Assembly: GCA_002694885.1 (NCBI GenBank)
Contig: NZNM01000159.1
Coordinates: 1 to 50,796, forward strand
Length of the DNA: 50,796 nucleotides
Direction of reading: 5' to 3'
From: Opitutaceae bacterium
Lineage (GTDB): Bacteria; Verrucomicrobiota; Verrucomicrobiia; Opitutales; Opitutaceae
Part shown: in pieces, positions 2,222 through 45,917 of the stretch
Numbering within the stretch: position 1 is the stretch's first letter
Layout: every line of letters starts with the position of its first letter
Made by a program: the position numbers and the translations under genes
Notes under the pieces: generated by a model
Database searches by the model: none
Told to the model about the DNA's origin: nothing
What the model saw: only the letters and a program-made list of their open reading frames with translations

Positions 2222-2307
2222 ATTGTCACAATGGTTGAAGAAGTGACTTCTCAATTTTCCTTACCCACCCTAGAAGCTTTACTCTCGCCCATATTCCAAC
2301 TTCCTTG

Positions 2308-3765: not shown

Positions 3766-3770
3766 CAATC

Positions 3771-4859: not shown

Positions 4860-4909
4860 TTTACAACCAATCTCGTTTTTGCAGTACCATCTAACTTTGA
4901 GAATCCTCA

Positions 4910-4968
4910 GTAGGAGCGGCTTCACGCCGCGATTTTTCTGTTCTATCGCGGCGTGAAGCCCCTCCTAC
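4910..4968. repeat. Paired REP-like palindrome (family A) inside the glc operon
   Basis: Arms GTAGGAGCGGCTTCACGCCG and its near reverse complement face each other across a 10-bp spacer. The sequence closely resembles pseudomonad REP elements, with a GTAG foot and a GAGCGGC stem. It sits in the 124-bp gap between glcE and glcF, so it would form a hairpin in the glc mRNA. Confidence 0.85.
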
Positions 4969-4983
4969 CATTTAAGAATTCAA

Positions 4984-6252
4984 ATGATTAGCCAAATCTC
5001 CAAAGACAAGCTGGGACCCAAATACGCCTCGATGAAGGAGCCTATCGAGGCTTGTGTGCATTGCGGATTTTGTCTGCCTACTTGCCCGACCTATTCGACC
5101 ATGGGAGACGAAATGAACTCCCCACGAGGACGCATTTTCCTCATGAAGGAAACTCTGGAAGGAAAGATAGACCCATCCGAAATCGATCCCTTCATCGACA
5201 ATTGCCTGGGTTGCTTAGCCTGTGTTACGTCTTGTCCTTCCGGTGTTGAATACGGAGAACTCATTTCGCCCTATCGCTCTTGGTCCGAGGAGCAACGAAA
5301 GCGGGGAACCCTGGAAAAGCTCCAGCGTTTTGCTCTCCTGAAAACCATTCCCTGCCCAGATCGATTTCGGGCCGCTTCCAAAATAGCCAGCGTATTCAAA
5401 CCGGTCGCCCCTTACCTGCCAAAAAGCTTTGGAGCCATGATTGAACTGGCTCCTTCTCAGCTGCCCGAAAAGCAAGAATTCGATCCAATCTATCCAGCGA
5501 ACGGGACACGACGCGGCCGCGTTGCCCTCCTAATCGGATGCGCCCAACAAGCCCTAGCCCCTAAGATCAACCAAGCGGCCATCAATGTGCTCACTCGAAA
5601 CGGCATCGAGGTAGTGGTGCCCGAAAGCCAAGGCTGTTGCGGATCCCTGGCCATGCATATCGGGGCTTCCAAAGAAGCCCAAGCTGCTGCCAAAAAGAAT
5701 TTCGAGGCTTTCCCGGACGACGTAGACGCCATCATCTCCACCGCTGCCGGATGCGGGTCAGGAATGAAGGAATACGGAACCCTCTTCGCTGGAGCCGACG
5801 AGGAAATCGCTGATCAAGCGAAAGCTTATTCCGCCAAGGTCCAAGATGTTTGCGCCTATCTGGATGCGGTAGGCTTCGCCCCACCCGAGAATAGCGAAGC
5901 ACCTCCCATCAAAGTGGCCTACCACGACGCCTGCCACCTGGCCCATGCCCAAAAAATCCGATCAGCTCCCCGTAAACTACTTCAATCCGTTCCCGGAATC
6001 GAACTTTTGGAACCTGCCGAATGGGAGATTTGCTGCGGCTCAGCCGGCAGCTACAATATCGAACATCCGGATACCGCTAAAGAACTGGGAAAACGGAAAG
6101 TGAAGAATCTAATGGCCACCAATCCAGACGTCATCGCCACCGGCAACATCGGCTGCCTCACTCAAATCGAGTTCCACTCCAAAGACAGCGAGAAACCCGT
6201 CCCCGTAGTCCACACCGTTGAGTTATTGGATGGCTGGAGTCCGGGTAGATAG
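4984..6252 (+). CDS. glcF: Glycolate oxidase iron-sulfur subunit GlcF
   Basis: Iron-sulfur subunit (422 aa) that takes electrons from the GlcD/E flavins. It has two 4Fe-4S binding motifs near the N terminus: CVHCGFCLPTCP at about residue 24 and CLGCLACVTSCP at about residue 74. Two CCG domains follow, with CCGSLAMH near 218 and AYHDACHLAHAQ...CCGSAGSY between about 310 and 350, as in GlcF, LutA and HdrB proteins. The length matches E. coli GlcF. It is last in the operon; the gap to glcE is filled by a REP-like hairpin. The gene downstream (purL) is convergent. Confidence 0.94.
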   Translation: MISQISKDKLGPKYASMKEPIEACVHCGFCLPTCPTYSTMGDEMNSPRGRIFLMKETLEGKIDPSEIDPFIDNCLGCLACVTSCPSGVEYGELISPYRSWSEEQRKRGTLEKLQRFALLKTIPCPDRFRAASKIASVFKPVAPYLPKSFGAMIELAPSQLPEKQEFDPIYPANGTRRGRVALLIGCAQQALAPKINQAAINVLTRNGIEVVVPESQGCCGSLAMHIGASKEAQAAAKKNFEAFPDDVDAIISTAAGCGSGMKEYGTLFAGADEEIADQAKAYSAKVQDVCAYLDAVGFAPPENSEAPPIKVAYHDACHLAHAQKIRSAPRKLLQSVPGIELLEPAEWEICCGSAGSYNIEHPDTAKELGKRKVKNLMATNPDVIATGNIGCLTQIEFHSKDSEKPVPVVHTVELLDGWSPGR

Positions 6253-12406: not shown

Positions 12407-13840
12407 ATGAGAATCGTCTCTGTTTTTCCGATCCTCGCATCGCTTCTCTGCTCAATCATAGTTCCCGCAAAGGGCGATCGGCCTAACATTCTCATGATCG
12501 CCGTCGACGATCTGCGGACAGAACTCGGCTGCTACGGGGAGTCCCATATCGTTTCCCCAAACATAGATCGATTGGCCGCCAGTGGACTGCGTTTCGATCG
12601 GGCTTATTGCATGGTACCCACCTGCGGGGCTTCGCGGGCCAGCCTGTTCAGTGGACGCCGACCGAGTCCCGATCGTTTTGTTAGGTATACCGCCCGCATC
12701 GATGAGGATTCGCCTCAATCTATTGGGCTCCACCAGTATCTGAAACGAGCTGGGTATCGCACCGCCAGTTTGGGCAAGATCCTCCACTATCCAGCCGATC
12801 AATCCGATGGGTGGAGCGAATCACCTTGGAGGCCAGATCGTAGTGAGCCAACGATTACAGAACCGATATTGGGCTGGACCGAACCCGCCAATATCAACGC
12901 TCTCCTCAAGCAATCGCGCAACAAGCGCCTTCCCTTCGCATCTTTCGATGCGGAAGACGAAGCCTTGGGAGATGGCAAGGTCGCTGCCGAAGCGGTCAGG
13001 AGGATCAAGACCTTCGCAAAGAGCGAGGAGCCCTTCTTTTTGGCGGTCGGTTTTTTCAAGCCCCACTTGCCATTCAATGCGCCCAAAAAGTATTGGGATC
13101 TCTATGACAAATTGCCGATAGATCTACCGGACAACTACTACCCACCCGAAGACGCCCCAAAAGAGGCCATTCACAATTTCGGTGAGCTGCGCAACTATGG
13201 AGGCGTACCAAAATCGGGGCCGATTCCCGATGCCATGGCCCGGACGCTGATCCGTGGATACTATGCCTGCGTGTCCTATACGGACGCTCAAATCGGGAAA
13301 GTGCTAGACGCTCTGGATGCGGAAGGTCTAGCGGACAATACAATCGTCATACTCTGGGGAGATCACGGCTGGAACTTGGGAGAACATACGCTTTGGTGCA
13401 AGCATTGCACCTTCGAGAACGCTATGCAGGCGCCACTCATCATCCGTTCGCCAGTTCATCGTTCTTCTAGCCAGGGATCCACCACCAAAACTCTTGCCGA
13501 ATTCATCGATATCTACCCCACGCTTTGCGATCTAGCGGGGATCAAACCACCTTCCGGATTAGATGGACAGAGCCTAGTCCCCACCCTCGAGAACCCCGCA
13601 GATCCCGGAAAAGGATTCGCTATCGGCCGCTTCCGCGACGGGGACACCATCCGAACGGACCGATGGCGCTACACCGAATATTCCTCCGAAGAAAGCTCCG
13701 GCAGGTTGAAGATCGTCGCCCGCATGCTCTACGATCATGATCGAGACCCGGATGAAAATCGGAATCTGGCCAATCTTCCAGAGTACGCATCGATCATCAC
13801 CGAGCTTTCAAAACAGCTCAACGCCCAAAAAGGACGATAG
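12407..13840 (+). CDS. Sulfatase, iduronate-2-sulfatase-like, CGASR motif
   Basis: A 477-residue exported sulfatase with a signal peptide (about 1-23, VPAKG). D34-D35 are metal ligands. The formylglycine signature is C73-G-A-S-R77, with Ala where most type I enzymes have Pro. Ala at this place is known from some sulfatases, so activation is still plausible. The second metal site is in LWGDHGWNLGEHTLW near residue 322. The layout (KILHYP, FFLAVGFFKPHLPF, YTDAQIGKVLDAL) places it in the same S1_7-like group as the sulfatase at 645-2090, but the two are clearly divergent paralogues. It stands alone on the plus strand between repeats. Confidence 0.92.
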   Translation: MRIVSVFPILASLLCSIIVPAKGDRPNILMIAVDDLRTELGCYGESHIVSPNIDRLAASGLRFDRAYCMVPTCGASRASLFSGRRPSPDRFVRYTARIDEDSPQSIGLHQYLKRAGYRTASLGKILHYPADQSDGWSESPWRPDRSEPTITEPILGWTEPANINALLKQSRNKRLPFASFDAEDEALGDGKVAAEAVRRIKTFAKSEEPFFLAVGFFKPHLPFNAPKKYWDLYDKLPIDLPDNYYPPEDAPKEAIHNFGELRNYGGVPKSGPIPDAMARTLIRGYYACVSYTDAQIGKVLDALDAEGLADNTIVILWGDHGWNLGEHTLWCKHCTFENAMQAPLIIRSPVHRSSSQGSTTKTLAEFIDIYPTLCDLAGIKPPSGLDGQSLVPTLENPADPGKGFAIGRFRDGDTIRTDRWRYTEYSSEESSGRLKIVARMLYDHDRDPDENRNLANLPEYASIITELSKQLNAQKGR

Positions 13841-14273: not shown

Positions 14274-15530
14274 ATGCTTAAGACCCTATCCATCAGCCTC
14301 TTTGCACTTATTGCTCTTCCAAGTTTGGCGGCTCAAAAGTTTTACGAGTCGGCCCCTATCAATTATTACGAAAGCGAGGCCGTCGACAAGATCGCTACCT
14401 ACTTTGCCAACGAGGAAAACCTAAACGACTGGCAACATGCGGAAGATAGCGGATATCTGCAATCTTTCCTGGATGCATTTGAGATCCCGTACGATTCGCA
14501 AACGCTAGTGTTCTCCAAGACCAGTCTTCAAGATAGCCGCATTCGTCCTACCAATCCGCGGGCTATCTATTTCAATGATGAGATCTATGTTGGCTGGGTA
14601 CCTTCGGGCGGAATTCTGGAAATATCCGTTCCCAGCCCGACTACGGGCACGAACTTCTATTCACTAGAAATGGATGTCTTTCCGCCTAAGCTGGTTCGCG
14701 AGGACGATAATTGCCTCCAATGCCATGGCGGATCCTTCACTAGGGACATTCCCGGCCACTTGGTTCGTTCGGTTTACCCTGACCAAACAGGTCAGCCCAT
14801 TTTTAAAGCAGGGACGCGGGTCGTCGACCAAACAACGCCTATTCATCAACGCTGGGGCGGATGGCTGATCGACGGAGCCGACCTCGAGCATATGGGAAAT
14901 CGGATTTACAGCGAAACCACTCAAGGGGCTGATTCCGGTAAAACGTTTACTTTCGACGATTTTCCCTATGACGGCTATCCAGTGGAAGGAGGAGATGTCA
15001 TTGCTCAGTTGATACTGAATCACCAAGTACACCTACGCACCTTGCTAGCGGATGTAGTCCTAGCAACACGACGCGCTCTCCATGACCAGAAAATTATGGA
15101 CGAACTGCTCAATCGCAGAGAGCCGCTCTCCGACTCAACCCGCCGGCGCACCAAGCACGCTTGCGACAAGGTCCTGGCCTATATGTTCTTTGAAGACGAA
15201 GCTGAGTTGCCCCGCTTGGACTTCCAGGCCTCTTTGTTTGGTAAAGCGTTTCACGAACGCGGATCCAAAGACTCGAAAGGCAGATCCCTCTACCAACTGC
15301 GTATGAACCGGCGTATGTTCCGCTACCCGTTCAGCTATATTGTCTACACGGACGCTTTTGACGAGCTACCGCAGGAAGCGCTTGACTACATTTGGCCAGA
15401 GCTCGAGCGCATTCTCGACCCTACAATTCGCCACGAGGACTACCCGTTTCTATCCCGAAGGGAAAAAACAGCGGTTAGAGAAATCCTGCTGGAGACGCAT
15501 CCGCTAGCCGTCGAATACTGGAAAAATTAG
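14274..15530 (+). CDS. Periplasmic monoheme protein of unknown function
   Basis: A 418-residue protein with a cleavable signal peptide (about 1-19, PSLAA). One c-type heme motif is at C147-L-Q-C150-H151, within VREDDNCLQCHGGS. Just before it is a conserved-looking block (PRAIYFNDEIYVGWVPSGG), and just after it RSVYPDQTGQP and HQRWGGWLIDGA. I recognise the general pattern from uncharacterised proteins of planctomycetes, myxobacteria and verrucomicrobia, but no function is established to my knowledge. The C-terminal 150 residues are charged and helical with no recognisable domain. It is a single gene. Inference: a periplasmic redox or sensor protein with covalently bound heme. Confidence 0.8.
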   Translation: MLKTLSISLFALIALPSLAAQKFYESAPINYYESEAVDKIATYFANEENLNDWQHAEDSGYLQSFLDAFEIPYDSQTLVFSKTSLQDSRIRPTNPRAIYFNDEIYVGWVPSGGILEISVPSPTTGTNFYSLEMDVFPPKLVREDDNCLQCHGGSFTRDIPGHLVRSVYPDQTGQPIFKAGTRVVDQTTPIHQRWGGWLIDGADLEHMGNRIYSETTQGADSGKTFTFDDFPYDGYPVEGGDVIAQLILNHQVHLRTLLADVVLATRRALHDQKIMDELLNRREPLSDSTRRRTKHACDKVLAYMFFEDEAELPRLDFQASLFGKAFHERGSKDSKGRSLYQLRMNRRMFRYPFSYIVYTDAFDELPQEALDYIWPELERILDPTIRHEDYPFLSRREKTAVREILLETHPLAVEYWKN

Positions 15531-15580
15531 GAGCCGGGCGACGGATGCCTTTCCATTTTAACGGACCGAGCGTCTGAATC

Positions 15581-15608
15581 GTACAATTCTTTGCGAAATG
15601 GGTACAAT
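15581..15608 (+). promoter_or_regulatory. Candidate AraC-type operator before the isomerase genes
   Basis: GTACAATTCTTTGCGAAA at 15581-15598. A second GTACAAT begins at 15602, exactly 21 bp after the first. The 18-bp block recurs (15 of 18 identical) at 18871, before the SDR-dhaKL-lsrF unit. AraC-family proteins commonly bind direct repeats spaced about two helical turns. The PAS-AraC regulator between the two units (17940-18686) is the obvious candidate. This is inference from two sites only. Confidence 0.45.
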
Positions 15609-15657: not shown

Positions 15658-16689
15658 ATGAACTATCCCAAACTCCATAACGCAATGTGGCCCGGACTCG
15701 TTGGCAAAGGCGGCGACGAGCCAGACGCTGAACCGGCAATTAGCCTCGACCGAATGCTCGAACTCACCGCTGGAGCAGAAGTCGATGACCAAAAATTCGA
15801 CGGAATCGACTATTTTCTGTTTCATCCGCACACGGATCCAGACGCTAGCGACGACGAACTGAAAGCGATCGCAGACAAGATTGCCAACCACGGCTTTACC
15901 GTCGGTTCTCTCGTGGCTCCAGTCTGGCCAGGCACCGTCGGCGACTCAGCCATGGGCGACGACGAACAACAGCAGAAATTCCTGACTGCCGTCGAAAAAG
16001 CCTGCCGCATCGCCAAGATTTTCAACGAGCATGGCGTGCGCCAGTATGGCGTCATTCGCATCGACTCTGCTGAGTTCGGCGTAGAGAAGTGGCGTGAAAA
16101 TCCCAAATCCAATACGACTCGGATAGCCGAAACCTTCAAGAAGGCAGCTCAGATCGCGGCCGACAATGGCGAGCGCCTAGCCGCCGAAGGAGAAATCTGC
16201 TGGGCAGGCATGCATTCCTGGAAAGACATGCTCAATCTCCTCGAAGAGGTTGGAATGCCCGAGTCCCTCGGCTTCCAATGCGACCTAGCTCACACCTACC
16301 TGTACCTGATGGGCTACAACGCTCCCGAGCACGCCCTTCTACAAGATGGATACAGTGAAGAAGAGTTTTTCGCCGCTTACAAGACCATGACCGATGCCCT
16401 GCGTCCCTGGGCGATCGATTTCCACGTGGCTCAAAACGACGGAACCGTTCATGGCGCTGGATCGCATGACAAAACAGGCAAGCACTGCCCAGCGGACGAT
16501 CCCAACGGCAAAGTCGATATCGTCAAATGCTCCGGCTACTGGCTTGAAGGAGCCAAAGACCGCGGCATCGAGCACATTTGCTGGGACGGGTGCATGTTCC
16601 CGAACGCAATGCTCGAAGCCCAGGATACCTGGAACACGATCCTTAAATCGATGATCGATGTGCGCGATGCTCACGGCTGGGACGCATAG
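15658..16689 (+). CDS. Sugar phosphate isomerase/epimerase-like TIM-barrel protein
   Basis: A 343-residue protein of the xylose-isomerase-like TIM-barrel superfamily (AP_endonuc_2 type). Likely metal ligands are in GEICW (near residue 181), CDLAHTY (near 216), DFHVAQNDG (near 258) and CWDGCMF (near 315). The start is placed at ATG 15658 ([13 protein letters not shown]); 11 upstream in-frame codons to 15625 are less likely. The next gene, 55 bp downstream, is a second member of the superfamily. A candidate operator lies 59 bp upstream. Within the cluster, a role in aldose-ketose isomerisation or epimerisation of the incoming sugar is likely. The substrate is not identifiable. Confidence 0.85.
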
Positions 16690-16744
16690 GCAATCGCATC
16701 CAATTAACCAAGACTATACTCTTAACCCTAACATCTAAAAACTA

Positions 16745-17566
16745 ATGGCAAACATCTCTCTTGGCGCGGAAGTCTACACCTGGTTTATGCGGGAAACCGG
16801 CAAAGCCTACGATAACAAGCTCGGCCACATGATCGAAATGTGCGAAAAAGCCGGCTTTGAAGGCATCGAACCCATGCACTTTTGGATGGGCGACCTGACG
16901 GATCCGGCGAAGCTAGCCGACAAGCTAAATCAGCACAACGTTAAGCTCGCAGGGATCGCTCTGGTCCTCGACTGGAACAATCCCGAAGAAACCGACGAAG
17001 AACGCCAACAGGCCGACTCCGTCATCGAAACCCTCAAGCAGTTCCCTGGCGCTCCTCTCTGCACCGTGCAAATGCCCAATGGGCGTCACGATCTCGTGCA
17101 ACGCCGCTTAAATCTCGTTTCCTGCGTCAACGCCGTATCCAAGCGGGCCCACGACGCCGGACTGCGCTGCTCCTTCCACCCAAACTCGCCTGAGACGTCT
17201 ATCAATCGGACGGAAGAAGATTACGATGTCATCTTGAACGGGCTAGACAGCAGTGTAACCGGTTGGACTCCTGATGTCGGACACATAGCTAACGGCAGCA
17301 TGGACCCGCTCACCAAGATGAAAGAGTTCAGCTCCCTCATCAACCACGTCCACTACAAAGACTGGGATGGCAATCCCGAGTGGACGCTTATGGGCGAAGG
17401 CAAAGTGGACTTTGTTGGCATCACTCAATGGCTCGTCGACCAAGATCTTGACGGCTGGATTATCTGCGAGGACGAGGCCGACAAAGCGATAGAAGATCCT
17501 GACGGCGTTACCCTTCACGACGGGGAATACTGCAAGGAGAAGCTCTTGCCGATTATCAACGGTTAG
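16745..17566 (+). CDS. TIM-barrel isomerase/inosose dehydratase-like protein
   Basis: A 273-residue TIM barrel of the IolE/IolI/tagatose-3-epimerase type. Visible are FEGIEPMHFWMG near residue 38, the ligand-bearing FHPNSPET near 147, TPDVGHIANG near 182, HVHYKDWDG near 205, MGEGKVDF near 220, and E241/E244 in the closing strand. It is 55 bp after the first isomerase-like gene, and an intrinsic terminator (17593) closes the unit. It probably acts on the same pathway as the first isomerase, either as epimerase/isomerase or as a dehydratase. Which reaction cannot be settled from sequence. Confidence 0.83.
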   Translation: MANISLGAEVYTWFMRETGKAYDNKLGHMIEMCEKAGFEGIEPMHFWMGDLTDPAKLADKLNQHNVKLAGIALVLDWNNPEETDEERQQADSVIETLKQFPGAPLCTVQMPNGRHDLVQRRLNLVSCVNAVSKRAHDAGLRCSFHPNSPETSINRTEEDYDVILNGLDSSVTGWTPDVGHIANGSMDPLTKMKEFSSLINHVHYKDWDGNPEWTLMGEGKVDFVGITQWLVDQDLDGWIICEDEADKAIEDPDGVTLHDGEYCKEKLLPIING

Positions 17567-17592
17567 GACGCCTCTATCCCTGGCACTTTCAG

Positions 17593-17625
17593 ACGCCTGC
17601 GGTGAAAGACCCGCGGGCGTTTTTT
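17593..17625 (+). terminator. Intrinsic terminator of the isomerase pair
   Basis: Stem ACGCCTGCGG (17593-17602) with CCGCGGGCGT (17611-17620), one G-T pair, an 8-nt loop, then six T residues. It is 26 bp after the stop codon. The rest of the gap to 17939 holds the REP pair at 17728 and no gene. Confidence 0.85.
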
Positions 17626-17727
17626 GTGGGGTTAACAGGATTAAAGGACCTATCGAACGGTCTTTTATTTTAGACCCATCATACGCCCGCAATGAGTGTA
17701 TGGCGTCAGCTTTATTTAAGGGCGAGT

Positions 17728-17804
17728 GTAGGAGCGGCTTTATGCCGCGATAATCCAATGAACATAGTAAAGGTATCGAAATCGCGGGGTAAACCCGCTT
17801 CTAC
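17728..17804. repeat. Paired REP-like palindrome (family A)
   Basis: GTAGGAGCGGCTTTATGCCG at the left; the right arm ends in AAACCCGCTTCTAC and is slightly diverged. Same family as 4910, 18744 and 48520. Confidence 0.85.
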
Positions 17805-17939
17805 GGATCTCCAATGACCACTAAACCGATTACCATTGAACCAAACTAACGCTTGCGGGAATTTGCTAGAGATCGCATCCCGCTTACAAATCCCTTGCCG
17901 CCATGCGTCTCCCCTGGTTTTCTCGTCCCCTATTCCCCG

Positions 17940-18686
17940 ATGCCGCTCCCGCCTGAAGCCGATTCCCTATCCCGTTTTATTGCGAAGAATGAGATTGTTA
18001 ATACAGGGCAGCTGCTTTTCGACTTCATCCCTGGGTTGCTCTTTTTCGTCAAGGACGCGAATCGCCACTTCATATATATCAACCAAGAGCTGGCTGACTT
18101 TATGGGCCTCGAGAGCAAGGAGTCGATAGTGGGCCGACCTGACTCCGAATTCTTCCCCGAGGACATCGAAAAAAGCTACGCAGCTGACGATAAACGAGTC
18201 ATCGAGGAAGGCATCACCATTAGCAATAAAGTCGAATTAATCACCACCTCTCAGCGCCTGATTCAATGGCACATCACGAACAAGATTCCTCTCTACGATA
18301 GTGAGGGTAAGGTTTGCGGGCTGGCAGGCGTTACACGCAAGTTTGAGGGAAATACAAACGCGCTCCATCGGTCCGCCCTAGACCAAGCGATCGACTACAT
18401 TGGCGAAAACTATTCCCAGGAGATTAAATTGAAAGACTTGGCCCAGGTCTGCGGACTCTCGCTCAGCGCTTTCGAACGGCACTTCAAAAAGAGCTTCCAC
18501 CTCACGCCGATACAATACCTCAATCGCTACCGAATACAGCAATCCTGCGCAGCCCTGAGCCAGACCGATACACCCATTTCCTCGATCGCTGTGGATTGCG
18601 GCTTCTACGATCAAAGCCATTTTACTCGGTCCTTCCTGAAAGTCTTGCACACCACCCCAGCCGCCTATCGTAAGCGCTACACCTAG
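17940..18686 (+). CDS. PAS-domain AraC-family transcription regulator
   Basis: A 248-residue regulator read from ATG 17940; a TTG start at 17853 would add 29 residues of unconvincing sequence. The N-terminal half is a PAS sensor domain (FIPGLLFFVKDANRHFIYIN at about 25-44 through GKVCGLAGVTRKF near 130). The C-terminal 100 residues are a double helix-turn-helix of the AraC type (IKLKDLAQVCGLSLSAFERHF, then ISSIAVDCGFYDQSHFTRSF, ending TPAAYRKRY). It lies between the isomerase pair and the SDR-dhaKL-lsrF unit, all on the plus strand. Inference: it senses a metabolite through the PAS domain and activates both units through the GTACA...TTGCGAAA sites at 15581 and 18871. Confidence 0.9.
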   Translation: MPLPPEADSLSRFIAKNEIVNTGQLLFDFIPGLLFFVKDANRHFIYINQELADFMGLESKESIVGRPDSEFFPEDIEKSYAADDKRVIEEGITISNKVELITTSQRLIQWHITNKIPLYDSEGKVCGLAGVTRKFEGNTNALHRSALDQAIDYIGENYSQEIKLKDLAQVCGLSLSAFERHFKKSFHLTPIQYLNRYRIQQSCAALSQTDTPISSIAVDCGFYDQSHFTRSFLKVLHTTPAAYRKRYT

Positions 18687-18743
18687 CCCGTGGGAAATTC
18701 TCCGATTCGCGTATTCGATTTTGAATTTAAGTCAGAACCAAGC

Positions 18744-18814
18744 GTAGGAGCGGCTTTATGCCGCGATAGACTCTATGCCCCGGTACGGAAATCGCGGCGT
18801 AAAGCCGCTCCTAC
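18744..18814. repeat. Paired REP-like palindrome (family A)
   Basis: GTAGGAGCGGCTTTATGCCG faces CGGCGTAAAGCCGCTCCTAC with a short spacer. It is the most regular copy of the family in the window and sits just after the regulator gene. Confidence 0.9.
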
Positions 18815-18870
18815 AAGTCGTAAGATCCTATAGTGTCAGATTATGAGGAAATCGAATTAGCGCGGGTTTT

Positions 18871-18898
18871 GTACATATCATTGCGAAAATAGTCCTAG
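18871..18898 (+). promoter_or_regulatory. Candidate AraC-type operator before the SDR unit
   Basis: GTACATATCATTGCGAAA at 18871-18888, 15 of 18 identical to the site at 15581. A weak second half site (GTCCTAG, 4 of 7 matches to GTACAAT) begins 21 bp after the first. It is 94 bp before the SDR-fusion start. Confidence 0.42.
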
Positions 18899-18982
18899 CT
18901 CAATCGGGCTAGTTTCCTTACATTAACGCCTTCTCCCAACTTAAGGATGGCCCCTTCGACAAAATCCGTAAACGCTTAGAAT

Positions 18983-20767
18983 ATGCAAAACGAGTGGAAT
19001 GATGAAGCAGCCCACAATCTGGGCGACGATCCAATTGCGCTTCGTGACTACTCCGCAAAGCTGCTTAACCAAGCAGGCTCTTCGTTTCGTCTACTGCCAT
19101 CCGTCAAATTCGATTCCACGAATGTATTTGGGGAGAAGGAGTCGCTTCTTAAGATCGGCCAACGACCGGATTCGATTTGTCTCGATAGAGATCGGCTTTC
19201 CCGATTGGCGAACTTGCCCAATCTAGATTCCAATCATTTGCGAACGGAATTGCAGCGAAGCGTCCGCGCAGGCGAAATGCTCAAGGCGCCAAACGACGCC
19301 TTATTCCATAGCTGTATTCCATCAACATTTGTCGATCAATGCCAGAGCCCTGCCAGCTTAGCTTTGACCAATCACGTAAAAGCCCAATCCTTGGCCGATG
19401 AGATATTTGGCGAACGCGTGATCGCCCTGCCTCGAAAGCCAACCCTTCTAGAAACCACACAATCGATCATTGAACGGCTCGACGGCTCGACCTCCGATCA
19501 AGCGATTGGCATCCTCGTCCCTGGATTAGGACTTCTATCCTTCGCGGATACTGCCCAGGAATGCTATCAAAGATCGATTGAGCTCAACAGCTTGGCTACT
19601 CGCTATTTCGAATCTCAGAATTCCACAACAAACGAAGAAAATCTCTCTCATCCACTTGATCTGCAAGAGATCGCAGATCTGCGTTTAACCGTATCCAAAT
19701 TGAACGGACAGGCGATGATAGCCGTTCACAACACCTCTAGCCACGCGATATCGTTCGCGGTGAGCGAATACGCTTCTGGATTTTCGCCCATCGCGGAAAA
19801 AGCCGATGACTCGAGACTGGCTGAAGCAGGGGAGATCCAGCATGTCCGCTGGCCCAATCGCGGGGTATTCTCTTTCGCTTCCGACAAGACCGCCGTTCTT
19901 GACCTTGCCACAATCGCTGCCAATTTCGCTGAGGCAATTTCCCTTGCCCAAGCAACCGGAGGCTGGCAAGGCGATGTTCCGAAGCCCAACTTCAAACCAA
20001 AAAAAAGCGGCGTCCTGCAGGGCCAAGTCGCCTTGGTTTCCGGTTCGGCAGCCGGAATTGGTCTCGCGACGGCCACTACACTAACTGAAGCGGGAGCCTG
20101 TGTTGTCGGAGCGGACATCAATCCAGAGATCGAAAGCATCATGGCTGAAATCGGAGCTCTGGGCGTCACCGTGGACCTGACCCAAGAGGATCAGATTCAA
20201 TCGTTGATCACTCGTATAGTACGTGAATTCGGGGGATTGGACATTGTGGTTTCCAATGCCGGAATCTTTACCGCCGGCGCCTACCTGGAGGATATGGAAG
20301 CCGACAATTGGGGACGCAGCATGGCGGTCAACTTGACCAGCCATCAGGCACTTCTCAAACACGCCATTCCGTTCGTTAAAAAGGGAATCAATCCTTCCAT
20401 CATATTCATCGGCTCCCGCAACGTGAATGCTCCCGGAGCCGGAGCTGCGAGCTACTCTTGCGCCAAGGCAGGGTTGACCCAGCTCTGCCGCGTCGCTGCC
20501 CTAGAGCTGGCTCCCGAAGGCGTTCGCGTGAATATTATCCACCCCGACGCCGTATTTGACACCAAACTCTGGACGCAGGAGGCCTTAGAACGATCAGCCG
20601 AACGCTACGGACTTACGGTCGAGCAATACAAGAAGCGAAATCTCATGAAAACCGAGATTACCTCTCGAAGTGTGGGAAACACTGTTGTCGCCGTCGCTTC
20701 CAATGCCTTCGCCAAAACCACCGGAGCTCAGATCCCTGTAGATGGGGGCAACGACCGAATCATCTAA
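18983..20767 (+). CDS. SDR dehydrogenase fused to a degenerate RhaD-type aldolase domain
   Basis: A 594-residue fusion in the arrangement of bifunctional rhamnulose-1-phosphate aldolase/lactaldehyde dehydrogenase proteins (usually nearly 700 residues). The N-terminal class II aldolase domain (about 15-215) keeps the outline (LFHSCIPSTFVD, ADEIFGE, DTAQECYQ) but not the active site. Where the family has HVDHTH there is F116-V-D-Q-C-Q121; where it has a His before GL there is P180-G-L; the WGGGNTS-like loop is absent. The SDR half (about 345-594) looks active: GSAAGIG at 354-360, NAG at 425-427, S478, Y491-x-x-x-K495. It leads the unit with dhaK, dhaL and the LsrF-like gene. Likely role: oxidation or reduction of a sugar or aldehyde, with the aldolase half now structural. 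Confidence 0.85.
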   Translation: MQNEWNDEAAHNLGDDPIALRDYSAKLLNQAGSSFRLLPSVKFDSTNVFGEKESLLKIGQRPDSICLDRDRLSRLANLPNLDSNHLRTELQRSVRAGEMLKAPNDALFHSCIPSTFVDQCQSPASLALTNHVKAQSLADEIFGERVIALPRKPTLLETTQSIIERLDGSTSDQAIGILVPGLGLLSFADTAQECYQRSIELNSLATRYFESQNSTTNEENLSHPLDLQEIADLRLTVSKLNGQAMIAVHNTSSHAISFAVSEYASGFSPIAEKADDSRLAEAGEIQHVRWPNRGVFSFASDKTAVLDLATIAANFAEAISLAQATGGWQGDVPKPNFKPKKSGVLQGQVALVSGSAAGIGLATATTLTEAGACVVGADINPEIESIMAEIGALGVTVDLTQEDQIQSLITRIVREFGGLDIVVSNAGIFTAGAYLEDMEADNWGRSMAVNLTSHQALLKHAIPFVKKGINPSIIFIGSRNVNAPGAGAASYSCAKAGLTQLCRVAALELAPEGVRVNIIHPDAVFDTKLWTQEALERSAERYGLTVEQYKKRNLMKTEITSRSVGNTVVAVASNAFAKTTGAQIPVDGGNDRII

Positions 20768-20919
20768 TGCTAGAACCACAGATAACACTGATTTACACAG
20801 ATTTTACTCAATCGATTAAACATTTATATCCGAATCTCTAATTCTCGACTCGCGTGAATTCCGACCCAAAATTACTTAGCAGTTATCCGCGTGGTCTGCC
20901 CGAAAAATCATAATCTCAA

Positions 20920-21921
20920 ATGAAAAAGCTACTTAACGACCCACTAAAGGCCGCTTCTGAACTCGTCGACGGCCTCGTTGACTACTACAATGGCTCTGTC
21001 GAGCAAGTTAGCCCCGGAGCGATAGCCCTCACGAACATTTCTGACGATAAAGTCGCTCTTCTCGTCGGCGGCGGTACTGGACACGAACCGATTTACCACG
21101 GCCTCATCGGCGAGGGCATGGCGGATGGAGCCGCTTGCGGCGATATATTTGCGGCCCCTCCACCGAACGTCATTCTCGATGCCACCAAAGCCGTCAATCG
21201 CGGAAACGGCGTTCTGTATTTATATGGAAACTACTCTGGCGATGTAATGAATTTTAAGATCGCGTCCCAGTTGGCTGCAGCCGAAGGCATCCGCGTGGAA
21301 ACCGTACTCATTTGGGACGATGTAGCGTCTGCTCCCCCAACTGAAAAGGAGAAGCGTCGCGGCATTGCCGGACTTATTCCCATTGTCAAGTTGGCCGGGG
21401 CTGCGGCCGATAGAGCTGAAAATCTGGATGAGCTCGTGGAGCTGGTCACCAATGCCCGAGATAATACCCGATCCGTCGGTATGGCTTTGGCTCCGGGATC
21501 TATACCCGCCACCGGCAAGCCGACCTTCGAACTGGACGAAGACTCAATTGGAGTTGGTATGGGAATCCATGGTGAACAGGGAGTTGGCGTAGAAAAGATG
21601 ATGTCCGCCGACGAGCTCGCTATCAAAATGGTCGACCTGGTGCTGGCCGACGATTTGCCAATCGGTGAAGGCGACGAAGTTCTCGTTTTCACCAATAGTC
21701 TCGGCTCCACAACCATGATGGAATGCCTAATCGTGCTGAAAAAGGTGAAAGCTCTTCTCGTTGAGAAAGGCGTTAATATTTACGATGTCCTCTTGGGACC
21801 CATGGTTACCTGCCAGGAAATGGCAGGTATCTCTCTTAGCCTAACGAAAATGAATGACACGCTAAAGCCCCTATGGGATGCACCGTGCTCATCTCTTGGA
21901 TACACAAAATTAGGAAAATAA
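20920..21921 (+). CDS. dhaK: Dihydroxyacetone kinase subunit DhaK
   Basis: Substrate-binding subunit (333 aa) of the DhaK/DhaL kinases. It binds a short ketose covalently through a histidine as a hemiaminal. That residue is H217 in GMGIHGEQG, and the second conserved His is H55 in GGGTGHEP. GNYSGDVMNF (near 103-112) supplies the aspartate used in catalysis. The length fits unfused DhaK. dhaL is the next gene, 107 bp on, with a palindromic repeat between them. Family members act on dihydroxyacetone, and some relatives on C4 ketoses such as erythrulose, so the substrate here may not be dihydroxyacetone itself. Confidence 0.92.
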   Translation: MKKLLNDPLKAASELVDGLVDYYNGSVEQVSPGAIALTNISDDKVALLVGGGTGHEPIYHGLIGEGMADGAACGDIFAAPPPNVILDATKAVNRGNGVLYLYGNYSGDVMNFKIASQLAAAEGIRVETVLIWDDVASAPPTEKEKRRGIAGLIPIVKLAGAAADRAENLDELVELVTNARDNTRSVGMALAPGSIPATGKPTFELDEDSIGVGMGIHGEQGVGVEKMMSADELAIKMVDLVLADDLPIGEGDEVLVFTNSLGSTTMMECLIVLKKVKALLVEKGVNIYDVLLGPMVTCQEMAGISLSLTKMNDTLKPLWDAPCSSLGYTKLGK

Positions 21922-21929
21922 TTAGTTTT

Positions 21930-22010
21930 GGTAGGGCTGCTTGTCCTCAAGCAGTCGCACTCTATTTTATGAACAGCATTCTCGGCCGCTTGAGAACAAG
22001 CGGTCCTACC
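21930..22010. repeat. Paired palindromic repeat (family B) between dhaK and dhaL
   Basis: GGTAGGGCTGCTTGTCCTCAA on the left and TTGAGAACAAGCGGTCCTACC on the right: an 81-bp hairpin with GTAG/CTAC feet, 8 bp after the dhaK stop. Confidence 0.85.
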
Positions 22011-22028
22011 AGATAAACCCAATTCTAA

Positions 22029-22664
22029 ATGAGCGCGCCAACCCTCGACCCTACAGACGTTAAACAGATGCTACTCAAAGTGGCCGACGTGATCATAGAA
22101 TCAGAAGAGATGCTATCCCAGGCGGATCGCGACTTAGGCGATGGTGATCATGGTCTAGGAATGCAGCGGGGCTTCACTGCGGCTAAAGCTCAGCTCGAAG
22201 GGCTGGACCCGAAAACAGTCGCTGAGGTCTTTACGACTACCGGTATGGCCTTGATGGCATCCATGGGTGGAGCTTCGGGGGCAGTTATGGGAATGCTCTT
22301 CCAAAGTGGTGGCGCAGCGCTGGGAGCCAACGATTCCCTAGATGCCGACGGTCTATGCGCATTCCTTCAAGGAGCCTGCGACGGCGTTACCAACTTGGGG
22401 GGCGCCAAGCCGGGCGACAAGACCATGGTCGACGCCCTCGCGGGCGCTCGCGACAAAGCTGAGGACATTGACTGCGAAACCGTTTCGGAGGCCTTGCAGG
22501 CCGCCTGTGACGGAGCGACTGAGGGCATGGAAGCTACCAAGGCGATGATCGCCACCATGGGCCGGGCCAAAACCCTGGGAGAGAAATCGATTGGGCATCC
22601 CGACCCCGGAGCCTTGTCTGTATCCATAATCTTCAAGACAATGAGCGACTACGCAAATCAGTAG
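22029..22664 (+). CDS. dhaL: Dihydroxyacetone kinase subunit DhaL
   Basis: Nucleotide-binding subunit (211 aa). The N-terminal magnesium/ADP motif is D35-L-G-D38-G-D40-H-G. MASMGGASGAVMGMLFQSGG, near residue 80, is the second nucleotide-binding stretch, and GHPDPGALS closes the fold. No DhaM (the PTS phosphoryl donor for E. coli DhaL) is nearby, so it may use ATP directly, or DhaM may be elsewhere. A PTS enzyme I gene exists at 30838, but no HPr or EIIA gene is in the window. Its stop codon TAG lies within the GTAG foot of the following repeat. Confidence 0.92.
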   Translation: MSAPTLDPTDVKQMLLKVADVIIESEEMLSQADRDLGDGDHGLGMQRGFTAAKAQLEGLDPKTVAEVFTTTGMALMASMGGASGAVMGMLFQSGGAALGANDSLDADGLCAFLQGACDGVTNLGGAKPGDKTMVDALAGARDKAEDIDCETVSEALQAACDGATEGMEATKAMIATMGRAKTLGEKSIGHPDPGALSVSIIFKTMSDYANQ

Positions 22665-22737
22665 CTCAGCGCTTTAGCCTGAATGTTTTAAAGAATATTA
22701 TTCTATCTGAACTGCTCAGGCGAAAGCGCTGAGCTAC
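22661..22737. repeat. Paired palindromic repeat (family F) overlapping the dhaL stop
   Basis: GTAGCTCAGCGCTTTAGCCTG on the left and CAGGCGAAAGCGCTGAGCTAC on the right. The TAG of the left GTAG foot is the stop codon of dhaL. Confidence 0.88.
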
Positions 22738-22849
22738 TCAAGAAACTAATCACAGTATCTAATACAATTTCGCGATCAATAGCGCTTAATCGCGATTCAA
22801 AAAAATTAATTCTAATAAACCTAACACTAAATAAACACCTTCAAATAAC

Positions 22850-23725
22850 ATGGCAGATCTAGACGATATTAGAGATGGCGACAACTTCGGGCTCAATAGC
22901 CCAGCAGACACGGATTCCTTTTACCTGAAAGGTCTTAACAGCGCAAGCTGGGGCATAAAAAACCGCATGTCGCGAATATTCAATCGCAAGTCCGGCCGGA
23001 CTGTAATGCTGGCATTCGACCACGGTTTTCTCATGGGACCCACTTCGGGACTCGAGCGAATCGACCTGGGCATCGCTTCCCTAGCTGATCACGCGGATTG
23101 CCTTATGGCGACACGGGGCATGCTTCGCTCCTGTATTTCACCAGACAATACAAAACCTGTTTGTCTAAGAACCGATACGGGGACAACGATCCTAACGGAG
23201 ATGAACCATAACGTCCTCATCGACGAAGCCGAAGCCATAAGCATGAACGCTGCGGCCATGGCAGCCATGATTGCTGTTGGGGACCCCGCCACGGAAGCTT
23301 CAACGATCGCTAATATCAGCCGTCTAGTCGATATAGGTCAAAAGTACGGAATTCCTGTTATGGGTGTTACCGCAGTGGGTAAAGACATGGCCCGCGATGC
23401 CCGTTATTTCGGGCTCGCTTCTCGCGTCTGCGCCGAAAACGGGGCCAGCATCGTCAAAACTTACTACACTGAAGGCTTCGAGAACGTAGTCGCTTGTACC
23501 CCCGTTCCCGTGGTTATTGCCGGCGGCAAAAAGCTTCCTGAACTGGAAGCCTTGGAACTCGCCTACAACGCCATCCAGTGCGGCGCTGCAGGTGTCGACA
23601 TGGGGCGCAACGTTTTTCAGTCGGACGCTCCCCTGGCCATGATCAAGGCCATCGGTGGAGTCGTGCATGATAATCTGAAACCGCAAGAAGCCTTCGAACT
23701 CTTCAACGAATTGAAGAATTCCTAG
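22850..23725 (+). CDS. LsrF-type class I aldolase/thiolase
   Basis: A 291-residue DhnA-type class I aldolase matching E. coli LsrF along the full chain and in length. D57 lies in MLAFDHGF; GPTSGLERID follows. The Schiff-base lysine K203 is in IVKTYY, the same number as in LsrF. VIAGGKKLPE (near 222-231) and AAGVDMGRNVFQS bind phosphate. LsrF splits 3-hydroxy-2,4-pentadione-5-phosphate with CoA to DHAP and acetyl-CoA at the end of autoinducer-2 degradation. No lsrK, lsrG, lsrR or lsr transporter is present. Here it ends a unit with an SDR, DhaK and DhaL, so it more likely cleaves a phosphorylated product of that pathway. I leave the symbol empty for that reason. Confidence 0.88.
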   Translation: MADLDDIRDGDNFGLNSPADTDSFYLKGLNSASWGIKNRMSRIFNRKSGRTVMLAFDHGFLMGPTSGLERIDLGIASLADHADCLMATRGMLRSCISPDNTKPVCLRTDTGTTILTEMNHNVLIDEAEAISMNAAAMAAMIAVGDPATEASTIANISRLVDIGQKYGIPVMGVTAVGKDMARDARYFGLASRVCAENGASIVKTYYTEGFENVVACTPVPVVIAGGKKLPELEALELAYNAIQCGAAGVDMGRNVFQSDAPLAMIKAIGGVVHDNLKPQEAFELFNELKNS

Positions 23726-23751
23726 CCGAAATACAATTTTCGCATATTCGA

Positions 23752-23780
23752 GCCGGATGCTTAGGCGTCCGGTTCTTTTT
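23752..23780 (+). terminator. Intrinsic terminator after the LsrF-like gene
   Basis: Stem GCCGGATGC (23752-23760) and GCGTCCGGT (23765-23773) with G-T pairs, TTAG loop, then TTCTTTTT. It closes the catabolic cluster 27 bp after the stop. From here to 24035 nothing convincing is seen. Confidence 0.85.
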
Positions 23781-30837: not shown

Positions 30838-32601
30838 CTACGATATCGACTCCATTCGCGAATTGTAGAATGCAGTCAGGTTCTCGAGAATTTTTATACC
30901 ATCCGTTTCTGAAAGAGCCATTTTAGCTAAGTCACGAGCTTCGCTTAGCTCCATGCTCTGAACCACGAATTTGGCATGAGGCAATAAGCTGGGCGACATG
31001 CTCAATGATTCGATCCCGAGGCCAATTAGTAAGGGAACCAAAATCGGATCTCCCGCCATCTCGCCGCATATCGACACTTCAACGTTCCCTTCGCGAGCGT
31101 TCTTGACGACCATGTCCAGCATTCTGATCACCGCCGGATGCGTTGGTTCGTAAAGATGGGCAACTCGGTCATTCAATCGATCAACCGCCATGAGGTACTG
31201 AATCAGGTCATTCGATCCGATGCTGAAAAACGAGCATTCGGAAACGAGTGTATCACAAGCGATTGCAGCGCTCGGGATCTCAATCATAGATCCGGTTTCA
31301 ATCGATTCATCAAACGCTATCTCTTCGCTGCGCAACTGCTCTTTGGCGATTTCCAGGCATTCATTTGCCTGCTTCAACTCCTCGAAGCCGCTAATCATTG
31401 GATACATGATTCTGACATTTCCATGCACGCTGGCTCGCAAGATAGCGCGCAGCTGCGTAGTGAAAATATCTATATTATCGAGGCAGTATCTTATCGCTCG
31501 GTAACCAAGAAATGGATTAAATTCATGTTGCATTCCCAGCTCTGGAGATAGAGACATTTTATCTCCGCCCAAGTCGAGAGTCCGGATAACAACGGGCCTC
31601 CCGCCCATTGCTTCGGCTGCGCCACGATAGGCTTCAAATTGCTCATCCTCTGTCGGCAGCGATCTTGTATTGAGAAACAAATACTCAGTCCGAAATAAGC
31701 CGACGCCATCGGCTCCGATCTCCACCGCCTTTACCGATTCCTCCGCTGACTCGATATTCGCCTGGAGCTGGATTGGGTGACCGTCCTGGGTCTCGGATAC
31801 TTTTTTTGAGAATGCAAACAGCCGCTCCTCTATCGAAGCCCGTTCATCCTTAAGCTTCCCGTAGCGAAAGAGCGTATCCTCGCTGGGATTGACCACTACT
31901 TTGCCTTCGTATCCGTCTACAAGCACAATGTCTCCCGGAACGACGCTTTGGGAAATATTACCGAGTCCAACCACCGCAGGGATATTCATCGACCTAGCCA
32001 CGATAACCGTATGGCCCGTTTTTCCCCCGAGATCAGTTACGAGGGCCAGCACATGATCCTTATCGATGCTAGCGGAGTCCGAGGGAGCGATTTCTTGAGC
32101 GACAACGACGTGCTTATTATCTGGCCGTTCACCATCATCCAGGGATTCGCCCGTCAGATTGCTAATCAGGCGACGCATGACATCTCGAATATCGCTCGCC
32201 CGTTCGCGAAGATACTCGTCGTCGATCTGCCCAAACGCCTCAATATAACGCGTACCCACTCGCCAAAGCGAGGCTTCCACATTTTCCTCAGCCGCTTGCA
32301 TTTCTCTGACGATCTCGTCGATCAGAGCCTGGTCCTCCAGCACCATTAGATGGGCATCGAAGATTCTAGCTTCTTCCTCACCCAGACTGCCCTCGACTTG
32401 ATCACGAATCTTCTGGATCTGCTTTCTGGTGGACAACAGAGCGTTTTCAAAGCGGGCAACCTCCGCATGATGATGCTCGATTTCCACTTGGTACTTCGGA
32501 ATGGCGATTTCCTTTTCGCGCAGGATCGAAACAGGACCATGAGCGATTCCCGGCGATGCTCCGATCCCCGAATACTCTCTTTCCTCTTTCCTCGATTCCA
32601 T
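30838..32601 (-). CDS. ptsI: PTS enzyme I (PEP-protein phosphotransferase)
   Basis: First phosphoryl carrier of the sugar phosphotransferase system: it takes phosphate from PEP to a histidine and hands it to HPr. The start is set at ATG 32601 (MESRKEEREYSG), since enzyme I proteins begin shortly before GIGASPGIA; the open frame runs 24 codons further up into ispE. The active-site histidine is H197 in GGKTGHTVIVARSMN. The PEP-binding barrel has GVGLFRTEYLF, FLGYRAIRY and FSIGSNDLIQY, and a catalytic Cys in ICGEMAGD. Length 587, close to the usual 570-575. No HPr or EII genes are nearby. ispE, 68 bp upstream on the same strand, may share its transcript. Confidence 0.95.
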   Translation of the reverse strand: MESRKEEREYSGIGASPGIAHGPVSILREKEIAIPKYQVEIEHHHAEVARFENALLSTRKQIQKIRDQVEGSLGEEEARIFDAHLMVLEDQALIDEIVREMQAAEENVEASLWRVGTRYIEAFGQIDDEYLRERASDIRDVMRRLISNLTGESLDDGERPDNKHVVVAQEIAPSDSASIDKDHVLALVTDLGGKTGHTVIVARSMNIPAVVGLGNISQSVVPGDIVLVDGYEGKVVVNPSEDTLFRYGKLKDERASIEERLFAFSKKVSETQDGHPIQLQANIESAEESVKAVEIGADGVGLFRTEYLFLNTRSLPTEDEQFEAYRGAAEAMGGRPVVIRTLDLGGDKMSLSPELGMQHEFNPFLGYRAIRYCLDNIDIFTTQLRAILRASVHGNVRIMYPMISGFEELKQANECLEIAKEQLRSEEIAFDESIETGSMIEIPSAAIACDTLVSECSFFSIGSNDLIQYLMAVDRLNDRVAHLYEPTHPAVIRMLDMVVKNAREGNVEVSICGEMAGDPILVPLLIGLGIESLSMSPSLLPHAKFVVQSMELSEARDLAKMALSETDGIKILENLTAFYNSRMESIS

Positions 32602-32669
32602 TGTAACGTAGCAATTGATAACTGGCCAGGCCGCGACTGAAACAGCAGCGAACCCGCCCTCGCTGGGCT

Positions 32670-33581
32670 TCACGATGAAATGCTCGGATATTCCGTCAAC
32701 CCTATATCCGTAATAGTGGTTTCTTGGAAAAACGCTTGTTCACCCCAGCACTCCCGAACGATTTCCTTAATCCGCCCATACTCATGACTCGAACCCAAGG
32801 CAAAACAAGCGCTTCCGCTACCTGACATCAAACCTCGGCAACCGGTATCATCGGATATCCTCTCCAGTAATAGCGGGATCCCCGGATACTTCGCGCCAAC
32901 CACCGAATCGAAGCTATTTTCCAAAAGATCCGGCAAAGGCAAGTCGCCATTACGCCATCGATCCAACACGTTTTCCACATCATCTGCACTAGCATAACAC
33001 GATCTTTTAGCCGCCAATGCCTTATAGGCCCAAACCGTCGATATCCCAAAACTTGGTTTGAACAAGGCGACTGAGGTTCCTACGAGCGACTGTCGACAGG
33101 GCCCACCCAATGGTTCCAGCTCCTCGCCGCGACCTCTCATAATGAGGGGTTTCCCGTTGAGAAATAGCGGGCAGTCAGACCCGAGACCGGCAGCCAGTTC
33201 CAATAGAGCCTTTCCGTCGTCGATCCCGAACAAAGCCGACAAGCCTCTAAGGACTCCAGCCGCATCACTACTACCCCCTCCCAATCCAGCCCCAATAGGA
33301 ATGCGTTTCACGATTTCTATATCGAGGCCTTCCTCAATACCGAATCTATCGAAAAATCCCTCTGCGGCCCTCCAAGCTAGATTGTCTGCTCCTTCAGAGA
33401 GCTCTATTCCTTCTGTTCTCAAGCGGATGCCCCGATTATTCGGACTTCTGCTCAATCGAAGCGTGTCTCCGAATTCAAGCGGAGCGACTAAGCTAATAAG
33501 ATCGTGGAAACCATCCCCTCTCCTGCCGGTGACGGCTAGCAGCAAGTTGATTTTGGCGGGACAACACAGCTCGATTTGCAT
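32670..33581 (-). CDS. ispE: 4-(cytidine-5'-diphospho)-2-C-methyl-erythritol kinase
   Basis: MEP isoprenoid pathway kinase, fourth step. The start is placed at ATG 33581 (MQIELCCPAKINL), where family members begin; an in-frame extension to 33638 is less likely. The GHMP kinase motif is PIGAGLGGGSSDAAGVL (near residue 90). PAKINLLL at the N terminus and a C-terminal MSGSGSACFAL are further family marks. Length 303. The neighbouring plus-strand genes include ispD and ispF, so three MEP genes lie within 4 kb. The gene is divergent from pyrF, with promoters expected in 33582-33723. Confidence 0.94.
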   Translation of the reverse strand: MQIELCCPAKINLLLAVTGRRGDGFHDLISLVAPLEFGDTLRLSRSPNNRGIRLRTEGIELSEGADNLAWRAAEGFFDRFGIEEGLDIEIVKRIPIGAGLGGGSSDAAGVLRGLSALFGIDDGKALLELAAGLGSDCPLFLNGKPLIMRGRGEELEPLGGPCRQSLVGTSVALFKPSFGISTVWAYKALAAKRSCYASADDVENVLDRWRNGDLPLPDLLENSFDSVVGAKYPGIPLLLERISDDTGCRGLMSGSGSACFALGSSHEYGRIKEIVRECWGEQAFFQETTITDIGLTEYPSISS

Positions 33582-45772: not shown

Positions 45773-45917
45773 AGCCCAAGGGCTCTTTCCTATCCCCAGG
45801 AACCCAATTATTCTGAATACAGTTAAAGACTGTCCGTGATTGCATCGAGAGCGACTCGCTCTCAATAATCCAGTCTTACAAATCAGACTTTTAAAACGAA
45901 CCCAAACCATCTATCAA

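Follow-up and report, generated by a model that had tools for sequence, protein, structure and literature searches.

We describe a cluster of seven genes, all on the plus strand, in a contig of 50,796 nucleotides from an Opitutaceae bacterium (NZNM01000159.1, assembly GCA_002694885.1; this whole stretch is called the window below). The genes encode two xylose-isomerase-like barrel proteins (T1 and T2), a PAS-AraC regulator, a short-chain dehydrogenase (SDR) protein that carries an aldolase-like half, the kinase subunits DhaK and DhaL, and an LsrF-type enzyme. All seven had been called in an initial annotation of the window, and their coordinates are borne out. The features of the cluster are these:

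15582..15607, plus strand: upstream element of the T1-T2 unit, TACAWNNNWTTGC-N8-TMCWA, 26 bp; putative PAS-AraC site
15658..16689, plus strand: T1, a 343-residue xylose-isomerase-like TIM (triosephosphate isomerase) barrel (PF01261); predicted sugar isomerase
16745..17566, plus strand: T2, a 273-residue TIM barrel, IolE-like and of dehydratase type (TIGR04379 below its cut-off, Foldseek, His145)
17591..17622, plus strand: terminator hairpin 3' of T2, within the cluster (folding against shuffles)
17940..18686, plus strand: PAS-AraC regulator (PAS_4, HTH_18); open frame from 17853, start set by relatives
18872..18897, plus strand: the upstream element again, ahead of the SDR-DhaK-DhaL-LsrF unit; exact pattern match
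18983..20011, plus strand: SDR protein, its dead class II aldolase half (GGGNT and HxH lost; nonsynonymous divergence, dN, 0.50-0.73)
20012..20767, plus strand: SDR half of the same protein (PF13561; dN 0.06-0.09 among four relatives)
20920..21921, plus strand: DhaK, substrate-binding kinase subunit (PF02733; GIHGE His aligned)
22029..22664, plus strand: DhaL, nucleotide-binding kinase subunit (TIGR02365 over cut-off)
22850..23725, plus strand: LsrF-family thiolase/class I aldolase (NF006081 over cut-off; PDB 3gkf; Lys203)
23750..23775, plus strand: terminator hairpin 3' of LsrF (folding against shuffles)

The two hairpins fold at about -21 kcal/mol each, and none of 200 shuffles folds as well. 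The cluster had been described as lying between two terminators. Two strong hairpins do exist, but the first of them is internal, and before T1 (15520-15560) folding is at chance level (z -0.20). The strong hairpin after T2 thus divides the cluster into two or more units, T1-T2 on one side and SDR-DhaK-DhaL-LsrF on the other, and the PAS-AraC gene lies in between. The start of that gene is probably 17940 rather than 17853, because its relatives align from about residue 30.

A motif shared by both units had also been claimed, and this part of the annotation holds up well. The pattern TACAWNNNWTTGC-N8-TMCWA has two exact matches in the window, against a mean of 0.04 in 100 shuffles, none of which contained two; as the pattern was derived by comparing both window sites, the expectation of 0.04 is flattering. 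For the same reason, recurrence of the element in relatives is the real and independent test. Among 263 loci, exact matches are confined to relatives of the cluster (L158-L164 and L166) and to segments of the window (L003, L060, L137); of the relatives, L158, L159, L161, L163 and L164 have both sites and L160, L162 and L166 a single one. The PAS-AraC protein likely binds this element and activates both units.

The relatives come from a scan of the T2 alignment against 84,980 species genomes, which confirmed 205 relatives; the best 80 were kept. Among these, tblastn found all seven genes with order and strand preserved at three loci (L160, L161 and L164, metagenome-assembled genomes titled Opitutaceae, Opitutaceae and Opitutales). 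The cluster starts in the same way in L158, L159 and L163, where the end of the contig then interrupts it, while L162 and L166 have T1-T2 without the remaining genes. L165, L167 and L168 duplicate contigs of genomes G048, G099 and G078 and were counted once. The initial annotation had made its reading depend on the gene order being conserved in some relative, and with seven of seven genes kept in three of them that reading is not refuted. The gene set is real and conserved, and it is probably co-regulated, which supports the earlier view of it as one set.

Three of the products can be placed by family. The LsrF-type enzyme scores 424.9 bits against NF006081, the model for the thiolase of 3-hydroxy-5-phosphonooxypentane-2,4-dione (HPD-phosphate; cut-off 297), matches PDB entry 3gkf and is 55% identical to LsrF of E. 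coli. Its Lys203, which we take to be the Schiff-base lysine, is invariant in 11 of 11 aligned LsrFs. DhaL reaches 178.9 bits against TIGR02365 (cut-off 138.3). DhaK aligns its GIHGE histidine, presumably the substrate-binding one, with that of the solved E. coli and L. lactis proteins. It scores 320.9 bits against the equivalog TIGR02363, below the cut-off of 406.25; because this dihydroxyacetone kinase cut-off is not reached, we regard the protein as a member of the DhaK family and only a putative dihydroxyacetone kinase. Kinases of the DhaKL type phosphorylate hydroxymethyl ketones, and enzymes of the LsrF family cleave beside an end that resembles dihydroxyacetone phosphate (DHAP). DhaL is of the family linked to the phosphotransferase system (PTS), and a PTS enzyme I-like gene lies at 30838-32673 of the window, 7 kb past the cluster. 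Another type of DhaKL locus in the same order, RpiB-DhaK-DhaL-TIM barrel (L131, L132, L134 and others), probably serves a tetrulose pathway.

The SDR protein has lost the hallmarks of its aldolase half. In this protein and three orthologues (four of four) the GGGNT loop is absent and the HxH motif, which holds zinc ligands in class II aldolases, has become QxC/R/Q. Among the four, dN is 0.50-0.73 in the aldolase half and 0.06-0.09 in the SDR half, so that the aldolase half has changed about eight-fold faster; synonymous sites are saturated, and the comparison is of dN only, not of dN/dS. Judged by its motifs, the class II aldolase half is dead, and the protein is an aldolase-SDR fusion of the DHAP-shunt type. 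Its score against TIGR02632 (RhaD-SDR) is 232.5 bits, below the cut-off of 567.75. Relatives with an intact aldolase half, in genus g43 of another family (f8), adjoin MtnA in six of six loci and MtnK in five of them (L148-L151, L154, L155); the names rest on NCBIfam matches of the pair in G032 (427 bits over a cut-off of 279 and 521 over 275). Two loci in family f2 have a relative of the SDR fusion beside a 41% relative of MtnA, and the relatives at L152 and L153 have neither MtnA nor MtnK. The neighbourhood with MtnA and MtnK is the DHAP-shunt setting. In the window itself, the f8 MtnA and MtnK queries have no tblastn match.

T1 matched neither an NCBIfam model nor a PDB sequence. Its AlphaFold model (predicted local distance difference test, pLDDT, 84) is equally close to many TIM-barrel enzymes that act on sugars, among them isomerases, dehydratases and epimerases. 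T2 is better placed. Its best curated model is IolE (TIGR04379; 69.2 bits, 4e-19, below the cut-off of 290), and the top four Foldseek matches of its structure model (pLDDT 91) are IolE chains; by VIA-align, IolE and the isomerase Art22 are level (Z 28.5 and 29.0). At the strand-5 column, where epimerases have a catalytic Glu, T2 has His145, as do the IolE of L250 and its counterpart L251, and this histidine is invariant in 25 of 25 aligned T2 rows. T2 looks more like inosose dehydratase than an epimerase and may be a dehydratase. The earlier description of two isomerases is right in that both are xylose-isomerase-like TIM barrels, but T2 appears closest to IolE and looks like a dehydratase.

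A second recurrent neighbourhood of T1 (L192, L205, L211-L231, L043, L049, L051, L052, L055) holds a protein of 404-423 residues, without a Pfam or NCBIfam match, whose Opitutales and Bacteroidota versions share 52-72% identity. It also holds a MocA-type dehydrogenase closest to levoglucosan dehydrogenase (328 of 650 bits).

How the genes travel together was followed in 177 genomes of the order, the window genome included. T1 occurs in 31 of them, T2 in 6, LsrF in 19, DhaK in 24, the SDR fusion in 11 and an alpha/beta hydrolase, to which we return below, in 6. T2, DhaK (at least 74% identity) and LsrF (at least 86%) share the same six genomes, the window genome and five of genus g43, all of which also have T1 and a homologue of the SDR fusion. 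The family to which the window belongs was sampled in 14 further genomes, and as none of them had T2, LsrF or DhaK at these thresholds, the distribution suggests horizontal transfer. More widely, DhaK is present in 18 of the 19 LsrF-bearing genomes, all except G111 (naive hypergeometric probability 1e-18, a figure that ignores relatedness). In family f16 it lies, by coordinates, within 1-2 kb of LsrF in 12 of 12 LsrF genomes, with DhaL recognised between the two in seven of ten loci inspected. An LsrF-like match at 33% in L176 was left out of account.

LsrF is also carried by 19 plasmid records, nine of which were inspected. DhaK-DhaL-LsrF stands in two Bacteroidota records, from Parabacteroides distasonis and Aureibacter. 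Four plasmid records carry an lsr operon that includes lsrK, and in three of these lsrG is annotated too. On a Shinella plasmid LsrF lies directly beside an intact aldolase-SDR fusion, and in Sagittula beside a stand-alone class II aldolase, both with an ATP-binding cassette (ABC) transporter, an FGGY kinase and a GlpD-like enzyme; one further Shinella record has no annotation. In an LsrF tree of 30 rows and an outgroup, a branch with support 99/95 splits two sides. One (nine rows) holds five Lsr proteins, three alphaproteobacterial ones of the FGGY type and that of G111; the other takes in all 12 DhaK-DhaL-LsrF rows together with this cluster and its relatives in f8. A functional tie between DhaKL and the LsrF-type enzyme is supported, and the two form a recurring module.

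Several f16 loci (L118-L126) continue after DhaK-DhaL-LsrF with a protein of about 1400 residues that has FGE-sulfatase-like, HZS_alpha and cytochrome-like domains, and in Parabacteroides and Aureibacter (L264, L265) a SUMF1/EgtB/PvdO giant and cytochrome genes are found near the three genes.

What might such a cluster do? The reading we prefer, which we hold about evenly balanced between right and wrong, is that of a catabolic regulon ending in a DhaKL-LsrF exit module to DHAP; we infer every reaction and substrate in it. T1 and T2 would isomerise or dehydrate a sugar and the SDR domain would oxidise it, in any order, to give a product that carries a free HOCH2-CO- end, which DhaKL would phosphorylate. 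The LsrF-type enzyme would then cut beside it by means of its Schiff-base lysine, releasing DHAP and either a short acyl-coenzyme A (acyl-CoA) in thiolase mode or an aldehyde in aldolase mode. The dead aldolase half fits this model, since its loss would be expected if LsrF took over the cut. A 5-deoxypentose gives one explicit fit: T1 would convert it to a 5-deoxypentulose, the SDR would oxidise C4 to yield a 3-hydroxy-2,4-dione, DhaKL would make HPD-phosphate of this, and LsrF would release DHAP and acetyl-CoA. A 6-deoxyhexose would lead instead to lactoyl-CoA or lactaldehyde, and an inositol-type acid to malonate semialdehyde. None of these routes is favoured by the data. That DhaKL phosphorylates and LsrF splits had been proposed in the initial annotation; with DhaK in nearly all LsrF genomes this is still the best reading, the two reactions being predicted from family membership.

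Several points weigh against this reading. The six genomes that share T2, close DhaK and close LsrF are one genus plus the window genome, so their co-occurrence represents few independent events. In g43 the run is T1-T2-DhaK-DhaL and LsrF is far away. G111 has LsrF, the hydrolase and an SDR fusion but no T1, T2 or DhaK; this genome is 75% complete. The co-occurrence of the SDR fusion, which we had taken as support, was downgraded and says little, because the fusions in f8 share no more than 36-37% overall identity and sit in a separate MtnK-MtnA operon of their own. The LsrF tree is effectively unrooted (outgroup branch about 10), and the DhaKL-linked side may be a grade. DhaM is absent among the cluster genes; the genome was not searched for it. 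Lastly, most Bacteroidota T1-T2 loci have no DhaKL or LsrF nearby and T2 there is usually beside the alpha/beta hydrolase, so that T1 and T2 may belong to a different chemistry.

That hydrolase is PcaD-like, and in 57 of the 80 loci no more than 300 bp separate it from T2. A close relative of it adjoins LsrF in three f8 genomes (G064, G048, G111), 67-76% identical to the nearest T2-side copies. The window genome encodes one as well, away from the cluster (G000:C162:25490-26287, L249) and 86% identical to the f8 copies, and five of the six hydrolase-bearing genomes of the order, this one among them, are T2 genomes. Given its place near T2 in Bacteroidota and beside LsrF in f8, and its presence in the window genome, the hydrolase is likely an extra member of the pathway.

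These facts, together with the likeness of T2 to IolE and its shared histidine, also feed a rather unlikely alternative, namely a route resembling that for inositol. The SDR would make a ketone from a cyclitol or sugar, T2 would dehydrate it, the hydrolase would open the ring and T1 would isomerise the product, with DhaKL in the place of IolC and LsrF in that of IolJ, giving DHAP and malonate semialdehyde or malonyl-CoA. In G032 some 440 bp separate the hydrolase from a classical iol operon, and IolD is not over its cut-off in G000 (the window genome), G078 and G099. On the other hand, T2 reaches only 69 of the 290 bits asked of an IolE, and VIA-align cannot separate IolE from Art22. Since a true IolD is also encoded by three of the six genomes, the set cannot simply be equated with the inositol route; the hydrolase is absent from G078, and no inositol dehydrogenase of the usual family is in the cluster.

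Another tentative idea, on the improbable side, is that chemistry like that of autoinducer-2 (AI-2) is used here for food and not for signalling. T2, as an IolE-type dehydratase, would make a deoxy-diketone from an ordinary or deoxy ketose, DhaKL would take the role of LsrK, T1 or the SDR would produce the 2,4-dione, and an LsrF of the distinct lineage linked to DhaKL would, with CoA, give DHAP and acetyl-CoA (or lactoyl- or malonyl-CoA). If true, sugar would be turned directly into acyl-CoA with no pyruvate step.

The cluster could also hold two pathways side by side, T1-T2 for one sugar and SDR-DhaKL-LsrF for another, under one regulator. There is a terminator between the units, and each part occurs without the other, DhaKL-LsrF without T1-T2 in f16, Parabacteroides and Aureibacter. 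The common upstream element, the conserved order and the single run of T1-T2-DhaK-DhaL in f8 make this quite improbable. Decidedly improbable, too, is the second option of the initial annotation, that cleavage comes first, with an upstream enzyme freeing dihydroxyacetone, DhaKL converting it to DHAP and LsrF catalysing another reaction. Free dihydroxyacetone may be a substrate of DhaKL, and DhaK and DhaL are ordinary family members, which favours this view, but the cluster has no obvious aldolase for non-phosphorylated substrates, its class II aldolase half being dead, and the association of DhaKL with LsrF in several families and in Bacteroidota would go unexplained.

Breakdown of AI-2 itself, as 4,5-dihydroxy-2,3-pentanedione (DPD), with DhaKL standing in for LsrK and either T1 or T2 for LsrG, had been offered as an option and is very unlikely indeed; as the main reading we rejected it. 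LsrF does pass the curated HPD-phosphate thiolase cut-off, but it stands on the other side of the tree from the AI-2 type. LuxS was found in none of the 19 LsrF-bearing genomes (the control was positive in five of 14), and LsrG in neither the window genome nor the six genomes of f8. At E<=1e-30 the window genome gave no match to an LsrK-like kinase. There are weak LsrG-like matches (25-36% identity) in 10 of 12 f16 genomes, and generic FGGY kinases (25-29%) in 7 of 12 f16 and five of six f8 genomes. An apulose/apiose pathway was considered as well; no transketolase is among the seven genes, and the genome was not searched for one.

To return to the regulon with its DhaKL-LsrF exit, it matters beyond this contig. 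Annotations everywhere make LsrF the final step of AI-2 breakdown, and here, in f16 and in Bacteroidota its partner is DhaKL. Given this partner, and since LuxS was not found in any of the order's 19 genomes with LsrF, many proteins annotated as 'AI-2 thiolase' probably serve sugar catabolism. The conserved seven-gene unit offers a compact, testable pathway from substrate to DHAP. In the open-licence library that was searched we found, going by titles, no paper that joins lsrF with dhaK/dhaL in such a pathway, none on inosose or inositol with DhaK and an aldolase, none on a sugar kinase with apulose, and none on a 3-keto-glycoside link.

Two genes upstream of T1 recur as neighbours in the relatives:

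12407..13840, plus strand: sulfatase, conserved upstream neighbour (69-72% range in L159, L160, L163)
14274..15530, plus strand: 418-residue secreted-looking protein with one CxxCH (haem-c-like) motif; upstream of T1 in relatives

Pfam and NCBIfam searches with the second gave no match. The sulfatase is one of four in the window (645-2090, 12407-13840, 45840-47483 and 48578-50020), which point to sulfated glycans as food. At 2305-6252 consecutive FAD-oxidase, FAD-binding and Fe-S/CCG genes bear a likeness to the glycolate oxidase set GlcDEF. We found no transporter linked to the cluster, the genome itself not having been searched for one, and no LsrACDB within it, the rest of the genome again not having been searched.

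We know other systems that share parts of this design. PMC6079011 gives an isomerase-kinase-DHAP-aldolase template for 5-deoxyribose, fucose and rhamnose, with DHAP and acetaldehyde or lactaldehyde as products. The DHAP shunt for disposal of 5-deoxyribose (MtnK or DrdK, MtnA or DrdI, class II aldolase) likewise combines a kinase, an isomerase and a DHAP-forming cut, and the SDR protein of the cluster is related to the fusion found beside MtnK/MtnA in f8. The cluster, in contrast, has no MtnK/MtnA, its aldolase half is dead, its kinase is DhaKL and its cutter is of LsrF type. The L-fucose and L-rhamnose pathways have an isomerase, a kinase, a DHAP-forming cleavage and, in RhaD-SDR fusions, a related SDR; the kinase and cutter families differ, and the TIGR02632 score is far below cut-off. 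The Lsr operon shares LsrF, 55% identical in E. coli, while the cluster has DhaKL as kinase, an LsrF from the other branch of the tree, and no LsrK, LsrG or LuxS found in the window genome. With the myo-inositol pathway (IolG-E-D-B-C-J) it has in common the IolE-like T2 and a DhaKL-LsrF pair that could mirror IolC-IolJ, but T2 is below the IolE cut-off and IolD is not over its own in the window genome. The D-apiose and tetrulose pathways also pair a sugar isomerase with a kinase of DhaKL type, whereas the cluster has no transketolase pair and an LsrF-type enzyme instead. These pathways were reportedly described by Carter in 2018 and are treated in PMC13001218. Set beside all these systems, the cluster seems to be a variant, so far undescribed, of known pathways from sugar to DHAP.

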